A DNA stretch of 24,984 nucleotides from IMG/VR virus record IMGVR_UViG_3300025000_000397, positions 1 through 24,984 of that record; one strand, given 5' to 3'. This document shows positions 3,611 to 23,737 of the stretch, in pieces; within the stretch, counting starts at the first letter, position 1, and the number at the start of each line of letters is the position of its first letter. The notes below the pieces were generated by a model that saw nothing but the letters and a program-made list of their open reading frames with translations, ran no database searches and was not told where the DNA came from. The translations under genes were made by a program, and so were the position numbers. This DNA is from a virus.

Positions 3611-3641
3611 ACAATAAATGTGTAGAAAGAAGGAATTGATT

Positions 3642-4769
3642 ATGTTGTTAACAAAAGAGGTGGAGATTAATTTAAAAGGTAGTAAACCTAAACACTATGA
3701 GAGTTTAGGATATGAAATACCTAAAAAGATTGGTGCAAAAGGTAAAGAAGTTTGTGATTATAGTAAGAGTATTTTAGTAAAAATCGAAGATTTGCCTCAT
3801 AGTTCAGAAGTTATAATTAAACTACAATGTGACTACTGTGGAAAAGAAATCGAAAAACTATATAAGGATTATTATAAACAAACATTATCAGATGATAGTT
3901 CTCCGAATAAAAAGGATTGTTGCTACGAGTGTAGATATTTAAAGAAAAAAGAAAGTGATATGATAATACATGGAGTGGCACATACTACTCAATTAAAATC
4001 TACTCAAGACAAAATGAAGAAGTCAATGATGAATAAATTAGGAGTTGAATATGCTTCTCAAAGTCAAGAAGTAAAAGATAAAATTAAGTCAACTAATTTA
4101 GAAAGATATGGATTTGAAGTTTCCTCAAAATCTGAAATTGTAAAGGATAAATTTAAAAATACATGTCTTGATAGATATGGTGTTGATCATCCAGTTAAAC
4201 TTAAAAGTATTCAACAAAAAATAATAGATACTTATAATTTTAAATATGGGTGCCATCCAATGCAAGTGGAAGAAATAAAAAATAAGGCAATTATTAAACA
4301 ACGAATTGCATTTTATAATAACGAAACAGCACCTTGCTCAAGACAACAAAAATATATAAGTTTACTATTTAGAGGAAAATTAAATTATCCTGTAAACAAA
4401 TGTAGTTTAGATATAGCTTTTCCAGAAGAAATGATTTATGTTGAGTATTTTGGAGGCGGCCATTATTTAGATGTTAAATTAGGAGAAATATCGTTAAATG
4501 ATAAACAAAAGAATGATAGACGTAGATGGTATGCTTTAAAAAGCAAAGGTTGGAAGGAAATTAGGATACTATCAATAAAAGATTACTTACCACAAGATAA
4601 TATTATTTTAGATTTACTTTTATATGCAAAAGATTACTTATCTACAGGTCATTCTTGGATTAAATTTGATATAGATAATTCTAAAATAATTACTTCGCAA
4701 TATGAAATAAATGTTGATTATGGGATATTACGAAAAATTAAGCAAGCAGATTTAGAAGAAGTGAGTTAG
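3642..4769 (+). CDS. Free-standing homing endonuclease, Vsr-like (EDxHD-type) nuclease (HEG1)
   Basis: A 375-residue protein. ATG 3642 is chosen over in-frame 3618 because AAGAAGGAA lies just upstream and because the protein then starts MLLTKEVE, like the relative at 22106 (MLITKEVS). It has a zinc module with C63xxC66 and C94xxC97, then about four repeats of a 35-40-residue RYG...S.E.K.K unit (about 133-215), probably DNA-binding helices. A C-terminal nuclease follows with LDIAF (Asp257), VEYFGGGH (Glu268, His274) and GWKEIRIL. This resembles Vsr/DUF559-type PD-(D/E)xK nucleases, including the phage EDxHD homing enzymes. The last 150 residues are clearly homologous to the protein at 14635. 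It lies between the Rha-like and packaging genes and interrupts no protein. Confidence 0.75.
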   Translation: MLLTKEVEINLKGSKPKHYESLGYEIPKKIGAKGKEVCDYSKSILVKIEDLPHSSEVIIKLQCDYCGKEIEKLYKDYYKQTLSDDSSPNKKDCCYECRYLKKKESDMIIHGVAHTTQLKSTQDKMKKSMMNKLGVEYASQSQEVKDKIKSTNLERYGFEVSSKSEIVKDKFKNTCLDRYGVDHPVKLKSIQQKIIDTYNFKYGCHPMQVEEIKNKAIIKQRIAFYNNETAPCSRQQKYISLLFRGKLNYPVNKCSLDIAFPEEMIYVEYFGGGHYLDVKLGEISLNDKQKNDRRRWYALKSKGWKEIRILSIKDYLPQDNIILDLLLYAKDYLSTGHSWIKFDIDNSKIITSQYEINVDYGILRKIKQADLEEVS

Positions 4770-9566: not shown

Positions 9567-9612
9567 TTTAAATTTAAGAAAGGAAGATTCTCATTAGAAA
9601 GGAATGATAAAA

Positions 9613-10530
9613 ATGGATAAAAACTTTATAGAAATTACTAATTTTTGCAGTAGTAGAATAATTGATATAAGCATAAGAGAATGTGGAATTTATGCATTAT
9701 ATAATATTGAAAATGGAAAGATTTATGTTGGAAGTAGTATAGACATGTACTCTAGAACAAGAAGGCATCTTTCCGATTTAAAAAATGGAAAACATTATAA
9801 TAGATATTTAATTAGAGCATATAAAAAATATGGGAAGTCAATAATCCCCGTTGTTTTAGAAATTGTAAAGAATAGAGAAAATCTAATTGAACGTGAACAA
9901 TATTGGATTGATCATTTTGAAAGCTATAATAATAAAGTTGGATACAATATCTGTATTATTGCGGATAGATTAACCGGCATTTTTAGAACAGACGAGGAAA
10001 AGAAACATTTAAGTATTATTAATACTGGCAGAAAACACACTGAAGAAACAAAGTTAAAAATGAGTAAATCTAGAATAGGAATTCAATATTCAGAAGAAAC
10101 ATTAAAAAGGATGAGCGAGTCTCATATTGGCAAAAATTTATCTGAAGAAGCAAAAGAAAAGTTAAGAAATAATATCAATATAATTCCAATATATCAATAT
10201 TCGTTAGATGGTATGTTTATACAAGAATGGAAGAGTGCTGCTGAGGTGGTTAGAGTAAAAGGATTTGACTCGTCTGCTATAACAAAATGTTGCAGAGGAA
10301 AATTACATAAACATAAGGGATATATTTGGAAATATGAATATTTTGAAAAACTAGAAATAAAGTATAAAAAAATTATACAGAAAACCCTAGACAATGAAAT
10401 AATAAAAATATGGGATTCTATGAGTGATGTTTGTAAAACTTTAGCATATAGTTCTAGTGCTATATGCCAATGTTGTCTGGGTCATTGGGAAAAATATAAA
10501 AATTATAAATGGGAATATATGTTTTGTTAA
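9613..10530 (+). CDS. GIY-YIG homing endonuclease (HEG2)
   Basis: A 305-residue protein. ATG 9613 is chosen because GAAAGGAAT lies at proper spacing; in-frame ATG 9604 lies within that site. The N-terminal GIY-YIG nuclease (about 22-112) shows CGIYALYN, KIYVGSS, the MYSRTRRH segment with the conserved Arg, and LIEREQYWID with the catalytic Glu. Next come NUMOD3-like DNA-binding repeats (GRKHTEETKLKMS, GIQYSEETLKRMS, GKNLSEEAKEKL; about 138-186). Two NUMOD1/IENR1-like helix-turn-helix modules follow (about 190-242 and 258-305), each ending in a (Y/N)xWxY pattern. It is free-standing between portal and protease genes, and no intron is visible around it. It is unrelated to the other three endonucleases in the window. 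Confidence 0.92.
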   Translation: MDKNFIEITNFCSSRIIDISIRECGIYALYNIENGKIYVGSSIDMYSRTRRHLSDLKNGKHYNRYLIRAYKKYGKSIIPVVLEIVKNRENLIEREQYWIDHFESYNNKVGYNICIIADRLTGIFRTDEEKKHLSIINTGRKHTEETKLKMSKSRIGIQYSEETLKRMSESHIGKNLSEEAKEKLRNNINIIPIYQYSLDGMFIQEWKSAAEVVRVKGFDSSAITKCCRGKLHKHKGYIWKYEYFEKLEIKYKKIIQKTLDNEIIKIWDSMSDVCKTLAYSSSAICQCCLGHWEKYKNYKWEYMFC

Positions 10531-12998: not shown

Positions 12999-14044
12999 AT
13001 GAGTTTTGGAATAGATTTTACAAAATTACAAGAGAATGCAGAACAAGTGGAAATTAATAAAATTGTAAAGAATAAGTTGGCAACTATTAATCCTGCTCGT
13101 CCGAATGAAGATGTGGAGATTTTTACTAATATTGTTTATGGAAAAGATGTATCTAAATATGGTAAAAAAGTTGATACAGTAATGGATAAGATTAAAACTT
13201 TAGCAGGTATGGCTAATGATGGTAATACTCAGGCAAAAGCCGAGTTGAATGCTATTCGTACTATTACTATTCAACAACCTTTAGAAAAGAGATTGGCTAT
13301 TAATAGTGCTATGGGCACGGTTACAAAAGTTGGTCTAAATGAGGAAATGCGTTATGAAGTTTATCAATTACAAGGAGATAAGTCTAGAGTTCAAGCATCT
13401 TCTGGTGCTTTTGTATTCCCTACTGTAAAAAAGAGAACTGGAATCATGGAAACCAAAACTTCTACTGGTGGTGTTGTGGTTGATTACAGAGAATTACAAA
13501 GTGGTAGTGTAAATGCCTTTAATACAGCCAATGAGCAAGTAATGACCGATATGGTTAACCAAATGGTTCTCTCACATATCAACGCATTAAAAAGTGCTAT
13601 TACGGCAGCTACTAGCTTAAAGAATTATAGTGAAGGGATTACTAAGACTAATGTCGAAAATACAAGAAAATTAGCAAGACGTTTTGGTTCTTCTGTTACA
13701 ATTATGGGAGACTATAGTGCAGTTAATAAATTAGGAGACTTGACTACTTTCAGCACGGTATCTGCAGGAACAGAATTTAGATTCCCAGAATATGTAATGG
13801 AAGAAATAATGAAAACTGGTCTTATTAAAGTATACAAAGGAAGTATTGTTGTAGAATTGCCAAATTCTTATAATATGATTGACCTTAATACTGCTGGTGA
13901 CTTCTATGCTCCTCAATTGCCTACGACTGATTTGTGGTTCTTACCACAAGGAGCCGCCAACGCATTGCAAATTGGACTTCGTGGTAATATGACAACGATG
14001 ACACAAACTGACATTAATTTAAGGGTAACTTTAGCCCCGTATGT
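12999..14044 (+). CDS. Major capsid protein, exon 1
   Basis: The main body of an HK97-fold-type capsid subunit. An AAGAGGT site lies before ATG 12999. The N-terminal 110 residues are charged and helical; a strand-rich shell domain follows (SGAFVFPTVKKRTGI, GGVVVDYRELQSGS), then a helical segment and a C-terminal stretch FLPQGAANALQIGLRGNMTT. Unspliced, the frame would end in YVQKCA and TAG 14058, giving 353 residues. I read the coding exon as ending at T14044, within Val349, where a group I intron begins. Splicing to 14414 adds 27 residues, for a 376-residue protein. The family call rests on position and fold pattern; the exon end rests on intron pairing rules. Confidence 0.8.
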
Positions 14045-14413
14045 ACAGAAATGTGCATAGGACATTTCCTTAATTGCAGGTAATTCCTAAAGCTCTCATG
14101 CCACAACATAAGGATGAAACATGCCTAAGTGTGATGGAACGAAAGTAGAAAAAAGTTGAGAGATGGCATATGGTTAAATCCTAAGTGCTATTATAATGGA
14201 TGTTCATTGCAGGTAAGACTCGAATAGAGTAAACTTCAACGACTATGGCTGAAATGCCAGTACACTCAAGCGAGTGGAAAATGGAAACCCTTAACACATA
14301 ATGGTGAAGGTGAAGAAATAGTCTATTCTCATATGAAAGTATGAGCAGTTATAAACGGTATAGAAGTTGCGATTCTATATGAATACAAATTTATAAAAAG
14401 CCGAAGTTACAAG
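14045..14413 (+). ncRNA. Group I self-splicing intron (IA-like) in the capsid gene, 369 nt
   Basis: The region has the ordered helices of a group I ribozyme. P1: exon TATGT (14040-14044) with GCATA (14055-14059), including the U-G pair at the splice site. P3: 14063-14069 with 14276-14283 (one bulge). P4: TTGCAG 14074-14079 with 14207-14212. P6: 14218-14221/14227-14230. P7: GACTAT 14241-14246 with ATAGTC 14318-14323. P7.1 (14247-14249/14256-14258) and P7.2 (14264-14267/14272-14275) are typical of subgroup IA. P8: about 14289-14310. P9: 14328-14333/14340-14345. A further P9 hairpin: 14359-14365/14373-14379. It ends in G14413. A 4-bp P10 is possible (14414-14417 with 14051-14054). It contains no ORF. 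The pattern resembles the staphylococcal phage Twort introns. Splicing has not been tested. Confidence 0.88.
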
Positions 14414-14498
14414 ATATGATTGGGAGTTCGGAAATTACGTGGCAATTGAGAATATTCCACAAATTGGGATGATATACGATGCGGCATTAGCTGAGTAA
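14414..14498 (+). CDS. Major capsid protein, exon 2
   Basis: After splicing, GT|A completes Val349 and the frame continues YDWEFGNYVAIENIPQIG and so on, 27 residues to TAA 14496. The sequence has the aromatic and hydrophobic strand character of the last capsid strand and keeps an open frame only in the phase predicted by the intron ends. An unspliced mRNA would lose this strand. A different boundary pair (after T14050, before A14419) would also keep the frame but lacks the U-G pair at the 5' splice site. Confidence 0.75.
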
Positions 14499-14560
14499 TT
14501 TAAGTTAATTTTATAAAAGATAGGTCTTAATTTTGAATCGATGCTTAATTAAGATTCGAC

Positions 14561-14634: not shown

Positions 14635-15963
14635 ATGGGTAAAAAGCAAAATATTAATCAATTTAAGCAATGGGTATTAGAAAATTCCATTGATATAAAA
14701 TGTATTAGTGACTATAGCATTGATGATAAAATAGATGGAAAAACAGAATTATCATTCCAATGTAATAAAAATCATATATTTCCAAAAACAATAACCAATT
14801 TTAAGAAGAATCCTAGATGTCCTCATTGTACTGGAAAATATAAATATACTTATGAAGATGCCAAAAATATAGTTGAAGCAGTTGAAGGATACATATTAAT
14901 ATCAACTGAATATATTAGATGTAAAGACTATTTAATTATCCAATGTGATAAAGGTCATCCATTTCCTATGACATTTACAGCTTTTAATGTAGGAGGCCAC
15001 AGATGCCCTATTTGTAATACAGGTGGTAATTATAAATATGATTTAGAAATTGCAAAAGAAATTTTTAAATTGGGAAATTGTGAACTATTAGCAGACGAAT
15101 ATATAAATACAGATACTCCTATGCCTTATATTTGTTCATGTGGAAAACCTAGCACAATTGCCTTAAAAGAATTTATGCATGGGCAAAGATGTAAAGAGTG
15201 TGGATATAAAAAAACTGGAGATGCACTGAGAACTCCATATATGGAAACATATAATTATTTTAAAGAACATGATTGTGAATTATTATCTACAGAAGAAGAA
15301 ATACAAAATGGTAAAACAAAAGTAAAATATATTTGTTCATGCGGGAATCACGACGAAGTAATTATTGATAAGTTCAAATTAGGTGAAAGATGCAATAATT
15401 GTAGACAAGAACGAGTACAAGCAACATTTTTAGATAGATATGGTTTTAAGTATGCATTATCAAGTCCAGAAATAAGAGAAAAAATTAGACAAACTCTTTA
15501 TAAAAATGGATCAGCACCATGCTCTATCCAACAAAAATATATCCACAATCTTATAGGTGGTGAACTTAATTATCCCGTAAAAACATCGTCTTTAGATATA
15601 GCTTTCCTAGAAGAAATGATTTATCTAGAATACGATGGTGGTGGTCACAAGAATAGTATCATATACGGCACTGTAACAGAAAAAGAATTCATAAAAAGAG
15701 AAAGAAATAGAACCTATGGGTTACTACGTTCTGGTTGGAAAGAAATTAGAATTATTAGTGAAAAAGATGACCTAATCCCATCAGACCAAAAACTTCTAGA
15801 AATCCTATCCTACGCACGTACATACCTAAATCAAAATCATCATTACATAAAATTTGACATTGACAATTCAAAAATAATTAATTCTCAAGGTGAATTTAAC
15901 TATAAATATGGCGAATTAAGAAAAATTAAACCAACAGACATCCAAGAACAAGAAGCAATATAA
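14635..15963 (+). CDS. Homing endonuclease with zinc-ribbon repeats and Vsr-like nuclease (HEG3)
   Basis: A 442-residue protein from ATG 14635, with GGAGGAG 6 nt upstream. Four zinc-ribbon repeats of about 60-65 residues fill the N-terminal part, each with Cys pairs: C43/C62-C65, C104/C124-C127, C167-C169/C186-C189, C234-C236/C253-C256. One RYG-type helix unit follows (DRYGFKYALSSPEIREKIRQT), then the nuclease domain with LDIAF (Asp321), LEYDGGGH (Glu332, His338) and GWKEIRI. From residue 294 to the end it is homologous to HEG1, down to the shared KFDIDNSKII motif. It lies 136 nt after capsid exon 2, so it could be the mobility partner of the ORF-less intron; that link is inference. Confidence 0.78.
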   Translation: MGKKQNINQFKQWVLENSIDIKCISDYSIDDKIDGKTELSFQCNKNHIFPKTITNFKKNPRCPHCTGKYKYTYEDAKNIVEAVEGYILISTEYIRCKDYLIIQCDKGHPFPMTFTAFNVGGHRCPICNTGGNYKYDLEIAKEIFKLGNCELLADEYINTDTPMPYICSCGKPSTIALKEFMHGQRCKECGYKKTGDALRTPYMETYNYFKEHDCELLSTEEEIQNGKTKVKYICSCGNHDEVIIDKFKLGERCNNCRQERVQATFLDRYGFKYALSSPEIREKIRQTLYKNGSAPCSIQQKYIHNLIGGELNYPVKTSSLDIAFLEEMIYLEYDGGGHKNSIIYGTVTEKEFIKRERNRTYGLLRSGWKEIRIISEKDDLIPSDQKLLEILSYARTYLNQNHHYIKFDIDNSKIINSQGEFNYKYGELRKIKPTDIQEQEAI

Positions 15964-22073: not shown

Positions 22074-22105
22074 CCATGTCTCTGATTCGGAAGGAGAATG
22101 ATAAA

Positions 22106-23737
22106 ATGTTAATAACCAAAGAAGTTAGTGTAGAAATAACAAATAGAAACAAATTTTATTATAATAAACTAGGACATAGTTGTTCATCTGGAGATATTAT
22201 ACATATAAAAATAGATGATTTGTATAATGGTTCTAATATGATAGTAGAATGTTTATGTGATTATTGTCTAAAAGAAGGGATAGAAACAATACTTCCAAAG
22301 CAATATTATAAATACAATAAAGAGCGTGAAAAATTTCCTTCTGATACATGTTACAAACACAGATATGAGAAAGAATATGATAAATTAAAATATAAAAATG
22401 ATAATGGGTTATTAACTATATCAGATAGGAGATACTATACTTTTAAAGAAAACAGATTAAAAGGATTAAAGAATTACATAGAGAAATTTGGAACTATAAC
22501 TAATATGAGGAAAAATAATAAATATTTATACAAAGAAATATTACGTAACAAAGAAACCCCAACATCATTAGCTGAAGAGATGGGATATAATATATTTGAG
22601 ATATGTGATAAATTAACTCCACATTATTTAGATGACTGGAATAAATTTGAGACTCAAATTAGAATTTTAATAAACAAATTTAATAGATTTCCAACTATAG
22701 TAGAAATTACAAAGGAATTGGGCATAGGTCAACAATATATTAATTATCATGGTGGAATTTATGATATAAAGAGAAAGTTAAACTATGTTGACGAAGGTGA
22801 TTTGATCGATGATTCTGGATACTACAATTCTTCTTCCTACGAATATATTTTCAGCCAGTGGATTTTAAACAATTCATATGTTAAAGTAGATAGAAATGTT
22901 TTGATATCAGATAATCCAAAAGAAGATGGAAATTATAATTGTGACTTCGTTCTATCTTTGCAAAATGATACTAAGTTGTGGGTAGAGATTTGGGGAGGTT
23001 ATAGAAGTAAATCTAAAGATCAATTCCACAATTATAATGAAACGCATGACATTAAAATAAAATTATATGATAAGCATAAACATAATCTAATATCCATATA
23101 TCCTGAGTTCTTTGATAATAAGAAGTATGAAGAAATACAAACTGCCCTTTATGAATTATTTAGCGATAAAATCGAATGTATACATAAAAATATAGATGTT
23201 GAAAAAATAATTCCATACACTTTAATAGATGAACAAGAATTAATAGATAAAATTATGTCCTATTCAACTAATGATGAATACTTGCCAACGGTGAAAGTTG
23301 TTGAAAAAGCAAATAATAGACTGATGAGAGAAATTGTAAAAAGATATGGTAATTATGGTAAATTTTCTAAGAAAATAGGAATGCCTATGGAATTTAAAAC
23401 AAATAAATATTGGGACGAAGATAAGATATTTGAGTATTTTGGATTATTACATGATAAATATAATAAGTTATTAAATAGACCTGAAATTCAGAAATTAAAA
23501 GATAAGTGTATATTATGCAGGGATTTAAGTAGAGTTATTACTGTCATGCATAAGTATGGTGGTGGGTTCAGAAATATGCAACTAACATATTTTATGAATA
23601 ATATAAATGAAGTAAGTAATGAAGATATTTTACTACTAAATAGAATAGCAGACAATAAAATAAACGACAATACTCCAGAACACCAACTCCTAGCAAAACA
23701 AATCCTAGAAAAATATAATAAACAACAACCAGCATAA
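22106..23737 (+). CDS. Homing endonuclease-like protein with PD-(D/E)xK nuclease (HEG4)
   Basis: A 543-residue protein. ATG 22106 is chosen because GAAGGAGAATGATAAA precedes it and because it aligns with HEG1 at the MLITKEV start; in-frame ATG 22076 has no site. The N-terminal 90 residues share with HEG1 the plan H/YY..LG....IKIDDL..GS..., CDYC and a later Cys. The middle holds helix repeats (FNRFPTIVEITKELGIG). The nuclease at about 240-340 has YEYIF (Glu246), NYNCDFVL (Asp280), LWVEIWGGY (Glu294) and a Lys-rich helix, fitting a PD-(D/E)xK core but different from the HEG1/HEG3 nuclease. C-terminal KRYGNYGKFSKKIGM-type units probably bind DNA. It is free-standing between two virion genes. Confidence 0.68.
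   Translation: MLITKEVSVEITNRNKFYYNKLGHSCSSGDIIHIKIDDLYNGSNMIVECLCDYCLKEGIETILPKQYYKYNKEREKFPSDTCYKHRYEKEYDKLKYKNDNGLLTISDRRYYTFKENRLKGLKNYIEKFGTITNMRKNNKYLYKEILRNKETPTSLAEEMGYNIFEICDKLTPHYLDDWNKFETQIRILINKFNRFPTIVEITKELGIGQQYINYHGGIYDIKRKLNYVDEGDLIDDSGYYNSSSYEYIFSQWILNNSYVKVDRNVLISDNPKEDGNYNCDFVLSLQNDTKLWVEIWGGYRSKSKDQFHNYNETHDIKIKLYDKHKHNLISIYPEFFDNKKYEEIQTALYELFSDKIECIHKNIDVEKIIPYTLIDEQELIDKIMSYSTNDEYLPTVKVVEKANNRLMREIVKRYGNYGKFSKKIGMPMEFKTNKYWDEDKIFEYFGLLHDKYNKLLNRPEIQKLKDKCILCRDLSRVITVMHKYGGGFRNMQLTYFMNNINEVSNEDILLLNRIADNKINDNTPEHQLLAKQILEKYNKQQPA

Follow-up and report, generated by a model that had tools for sequence, protein, structure and literature searches.

At the 3' end of the capsid gene of a bacteriophage, the DNA poses the question of how the gene is read to its end. 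The window, as we call the whole 24,984-base viral record analyzed here, has a head-and-tail gene order in which genes for a Clp-type protease, a terminase and a portal protein are followed by two unassigned genes, the capsid gene and more structural genes. As a prior sequence-only reading had anticipated, a plain ORF call for the gene beginning at 12999 stops at 14060. The SPbeta-like Bacillus phage SPR has a protein to which the encoded product is ~41% identical. Comparison of the capsid profile with the PDB by sequence found no relative, but a fold search with an uninterrupted relative modeled by AlphaFold at modest confidence (pLDDT 66) matched HK97-fold capsids and encapsulins, so that assignment as a major capsid gene, one encoding an HK97-fold protein in an SPbeta-like phage, is well supported at the level of a predicted structure. 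Our reading, to which we give a probability of about 0.9, is that the gene is split by a self-splicing, ORF-less IA2-type group I intron at 14026-14400, that its removal would yield a capsid protein of 374 residues, and that the intron would spread as DNA.

The element near the 3' end of the major capsid gene is, judged by its sequence, an ORF-less group I intron. In a search limited to 13990-14520, the Rfam model RF00028 matched 14005-14345 with 51.6 bits (E = 2.7e-12), barely exceeding the gathering score of 50; scans of the whole window, with E values up to 1 included, gave no intron match. The covariance-model check suggested at the outset thus succeeded on the local region but not on the full stretch, and such introns are therefore probably under-counted in viral metagenomes. 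Core helices were drawn by hand from the sequence and then counted on an alignment of seven introns, namely the window copy, three sister-phage copies and introns of Clostridioides, Alicyclobacillus and Enterocloster phages; the rows of two Kayvirus tail-tube introns, misaligned in their 3' parts, were left out. Helix cells are paired at 94.7%, with changes on both sides in 15 pairs, values that none of 500 shuffles reached, and slid controls are 34-46% paired. Covariation is seen in P3, P5, P6, P7.1, P7.2, P8, and P9, and together with the RF00028 match establishes by comparison the P3-P4-P6-P7-P8 core of a group I ribozyme. Energy folding (z = -1.9) is weak and uninformative taken alone.

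The individual helices, all on the plus strand, bear this out. P3 pairs UUUCC (14065-14069) with GGAAA (14283-14287), four of its five pairs being changed on both sides among the seven introns; at one P3 pair the window has U-A, sister phage L005 has U-G, and L006 and L011 have C-G. P7 pairs GACUA (14241-14245) with UAGUC (14319-14323), P8 (14289-14310) consists of CCUU/AAGG plus CAC/GUG (CAG/CUG in relatives), with a compensatory C-G to G-C swap of a single pair in L005, L006, and L011, and P9 (14328-14345) is CUCAUA/UAUGAG. The core helices P3 to P9 proposed from the sequence are thus backed by covariation with the six related introns. P4 is indeed formed from two copies of TTGCAG (UUGCAG at 14074-14079 and 14207-14212), yet the doubling is not unusual, as had been supposed, since relatives have UUGCUG/CAGCAG and the hexamer pair of the window differs from theirs by a single compensatory change together with a G-U pair. 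Between P7 and P3' lie P7.1 (14246-14259) and P7.2 (14263-14276), read as UGGC/GCCA and CACUC/GAGUG and showing compensatory changes; their presence places the intron in subgroup IA. Group IA2 introns of the phage T4 td type have a P3-P9 core with P7.1/P7.2, a P2, an internal guide sequence, a U-G pair, and omega-G. The window intron resembles them in all of these features and departs from them in lacking an ORF and in carrying the U-G pair one base inside the intron.

The ends of the intron were placed by comparison with genes that lack it. Close relatives in viral contigs number 29, of which 10 carry the same insertion, three carry another, and 16 are uninterrupted; broader relatives, down to ~40% identity, were uninterrupted in all nine examined. 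At the empty site, the sequence in the close relatives is DINLRAEVTRYD or a variant that has Ser in place of Ala, and the DNA flanking the insert in the window reads ...AATTTAAGGG before it and CCGAAGTTACAAGATATGAT after it. A profile built from uninterrupted homologues served to score all 815 in-frame joints; junction 14025|14401 shared the top score of 675.5 bits with two slides of itself, and the unspliced reading obtained 625.1 bits. Only 14025|14401 among the three leaves a G (G14400) as the last base of the intron, and the requirement for omega-G therefore selects it. Exon 1 (12999-14025, ending ...AAT TTA AGG G) is colinear with the 16 uninterrupted close relatives. The 375-nt intron (14026-14400), placed by RF00028, covariation, and the empty sites, would run from U14026 to omega-G14400. 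Exon 2 (14401-14498, CC GAA GTT ACA AGA ... TAA) would supply the end of split codon 343 and the last 31 residues. It matches uninterrupted relatives, such as L015 with GCTGAAGTTACAAGATATGAC, and differs from exon 2 of the intron-bearing allele L005 mostly at third codon positions. The predicted product of 374 residues (...DINLRAEVTRYDWEF...) is colinear with the uninterrupted homologues. Alignment with intron-less homologues, which had been proposed as a check, thus showed that excision restores the conserved C-terminus, but at splice sites other than those first drawn.

In group I introns, the U of the U-G pair in P1 is usually the last base of the exon, and the intron ends in omega-G, which is nearly invariant. 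P1 of the window intron pairs GGGU (14023-14026) with GCCC (14034-14037); its U14026-G14034 wobble is followed by the loop AACUUUA, and by frame and homology U14026 falls at intron position +1, so that exon 1 does not end in U. Combination of both canonical sites, an exon-terminal U and omega-G, was rejected, as the frame shifts and reads RVRSYKI before a stop. Because the two rules together break the frame, one of them must be relaxed. We infer that exon 1 ends in G and that the U of the U-G pair is the first base of the intron, the exact 5' cut being deduced from frame and homology. The extension of the guide sequence, AACUUU (14027-14032), is complementary to GAAGUU in exon 2 (14403-14408) and would form P10 with it, with a C-A mismatch beside the joint.

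Should the rule for the 3' end be relaxed instead, the cuts would fall after U14026 and after C14401, giving an intron of 14027-14401, the junction TTAAGGGT|CGAAG, and Val in place of Ala. This arrangement would keep the U-G pair at the splice site and P1 and P10 in line with one mismatch, it is in frame, and its profile score is only 2.3 bits lower; moreover, the TerL intron of an Enterocloster phage presents the same one-base ambiguity, and there homology favors GGAU|CUU. We nevertheless consider it unlikely. A terminal C would break with the nearly invariant omega-G of group I introns, and Val occupies the joint codon in no uninterrupted relative shown, all of which have Ala, Ser or Thr. 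Related introns also bear on the choice. In Staphylococcus phage PT1-4, the G|U...G pattern is required, since retention of the U in the exon (GGGU|...) gives an immediate stop codon, and in Staphylococcus phage PT1-1, the same pattern is the best fit; a related tail-tube intron of phage phiIPLA-RODI fits the normal rule. The PT1-4 and PT1-1 introns share with the window intron a related ribozyme sequence, location in a structural gene, and the shifted 5' site, and differ from it in that they lie in major tail genes and contain ORFs. The PT1-4 intron (L044:2506-3713) is unannotated, its ORF is endonuclease-like, and the protein is restored only with GGG|U...G|AAAGCA. In PT1-1, several group I introns appear to lie one after another in the major tail protein gene (L119:1100-2900), and one of them fits best with an exon 1 ending in AGAG and U at +1.

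A published exception allows the shifted site to be accommodated within group I. Group B IStrons insert after GG sites such as AGGG, with U at +1 in a U-G pair followed by a loop, and splicing of BcISt1 after G was shown by RT-PCR (PMC4227781). Group I membership of the window intron is accordingly kept, the exon-terminal U being a usual criterion and not a strictly defining one. The window intron, at AAGGG|UAACUUUAGCCC, has the GG(G) exon end, the U-G pair at +1, and the loop, and by the published description resembles BcISt1 and other group B IStrons in its IA2 class, its insertion after AGGG, and the G that ends exon 1 (PMC4227781). Unlike them, it lacks IS607/TnpB genes, containing no ORF of at least 60 aa, ends in AAAAAG and not in CGG, and lies in a capsid gene; ORF-less copies of group B IStrons do exist (PMC4227781). 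Plasmids searched for a group B IStron as comparator yielded none from Bacillus cereus. As a tentative proposal, which we would not yet favor, the one-base-shifted site may be a mark of an IA2 lineage in phage structural genes, with or without ORFs, and not peculiar to group B IStrons; IStrons might then have taken their ribozyme from such a lineage, and the 3' end of the capsid gene might be an intron hot spot created by the neighboring endonuclease. In the Clostridioides phage ES-S-0173-01 (L042:2473-3300), a related intron after TTGAT is followed by a TnpB-like ORF and looks like a group A IStron. The shifted site of the window intron offers a small ORF-less ribozyme for studying a cut one base off the U-G pair.

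Loss of splicing altogether has also to be weighed. A TAG stop in the frame of exon 1 (14058-14060) lies within the intron and would halt unspliced translation ahead of the ribozyme core, which fits a degenerate intron in a disrupted gene whose capsid protein ends at 14060 (...LAPYVQKCA) and whose tail is dispensable. This is very improbable, given that in each of the four intron alleles the core helices remain paired, with compensatory changes, and exon 2 is open in frame, and that the tail is conserved as far as SPbeta-like phages of ~40% identity and holds most of the last long strand of the predicted structure. The intron of the window is probably functional, and annotation that takes no account of splicing truncates the capsid protein; the expectation that the last capsid strand would be missed is supported, as in-frame removal of the intron restores the conserved C-terminus. 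The sequence-only reading, correct as to the kind of element, the gene, the 3' location, and the absence of an ORF, had drawn the intron at 14045-14413 with P1 at 14040-14059 and a 376-residue product (...LRVTLAPYVYDWEF...), boundaries that are in frame and offer a U-G pair and a 3'-terminal G but that can practically be dismissed, since the misplaced joint scores 18 bits worse (657.4 against 675.5), the empty sites read DINLRAEVTRYD and not DINLRVTLAPYVYD, bases 14026-14044 of the intron would be kept as coding and 14401-14413, matching coding sequence of uninterrupted relatives, discarded, and the cut would fall within an 8-bp GNRA hairpin (UAUGUACA-GAAA-UGUGCAUA, 14040-14059), sited as P2, the supposed P1 (14040-14044 with 14055-14059) being its outer half. 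In phiIPLA-RODI, the guide sequence is followed by a closely similar hairpin.

For an intron at 14026-14400, splicing in infected cells would proceed as follows. GGG of exon 1 would pair with CCC of the internal guide sequence, alongside the U14026-G14034 pair, and guanosine would cut at the G14025-U14026 bond; exon 1, once released, would then attack after omega-G14400, guided by pairing of GAAGUU with AACUUU in P10, and the joined mRNA would be translated into the capsid protein of 374 residues. On unspliced RNA, translation would stop at 14060 and most of the last long strand would be missing. Movement of the intron from one capsid allele to another would occur as DNA, probably through homologous recombination and possibly with help from the endonuclease gene behind the capsid gene.

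Comparison of alleles suggests such movement. Capsid alleles with exon identities of 65-87% have introns that are 90-98% identical, a gap of which ribozyme constraint could explain part, and the exon 2 types found behind the intron also occur in uninterrupted genes, L006 having the ISYGNK type of L018 and L022. The higher identity of the intron and the shared exon 2 types together suggest spread by recombination, and the window intron is probably mobile. A DNA pattern built from the core and run on the viral contigs matched only the same contigs. Directly 3' of the capsid gene, a free-standing homing-endonuclease-like gene (14635-15963, plus strand; phrog_559, phrog_681, and phrog_12131) is a candidate partner, and collaborative homing, reviewed in PMC3984707, is plausible for the pair. 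In the close relatives measured, the stretch from the capsid gene to the next conserved gene spans 1.4-2.4 kb and contains endonuclease-like coding sequence whether or not the intron is there; in more distant relatives the two genes lie only 27-79 bp apart. In L013, an endonuclease-like gene of 93% identity sits beside an uninterrupted capsid gene, and a strict link between the intron and a downstream endonuclease allele was looked for in the relatives and not found. In L006 (5967-7296) and L013 (7258-8539), the endonuclease-like gene behind the capsid gene seems to be split into two frames, which suggests turnover of these putative genes. Three homing-endonuclease-like genes occur among the head genes of the window (3618-4769, 9604-10530, and 14635-15963), one of them GIY-YIG. 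A large ORF in the tail region (22076-23737) matches phrog_5104 only weakly; the endonuclease-like gene at 3618 matches that family too, and the ORF may be a further gene of this kind.

Group I introns in capsid genes are already known, and what sets the window intron apart is a rare splice-site arrangement. The LittleE intron of Cluster J mycobacteriophages, whose splicing was established by RT-PCR and protein sequencing, likewise interrupts a major capsid gene and is missing from sister phages; unlike the window intron, it is ~819 bp long, contains an endonuclease gene, and belongs to another phage family (PMC3706429). Lactococcal phage Tuc2009, as cited there, has a group I intron in its capsid gene and by that description is a similar case in a phage of a low-GC Gram-positive host. 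In three relatives of the window (L019-L021), the capsid gene contains a different ORF-less group I intron of 256 nt, which lies 32 bases downstream from the first site (L020:7051-7306). Rfam did not recognize the L020 copy; drawn by hand, it has P1 (UCGGU/GCCGA), an 8-bp P10, P3, P7, P8, and P9, with canonical U|...G| ends, and its excision would give a joined product reading FGNYLVPEY. With two different insertions at such a short distance, the 3' end of the capsid gene, as read from these alleles, stands out as an insertion hot spot, and two introns 32 bases apart beside endonuclease genes constitute a natural test of intron seeding by endonucleases.
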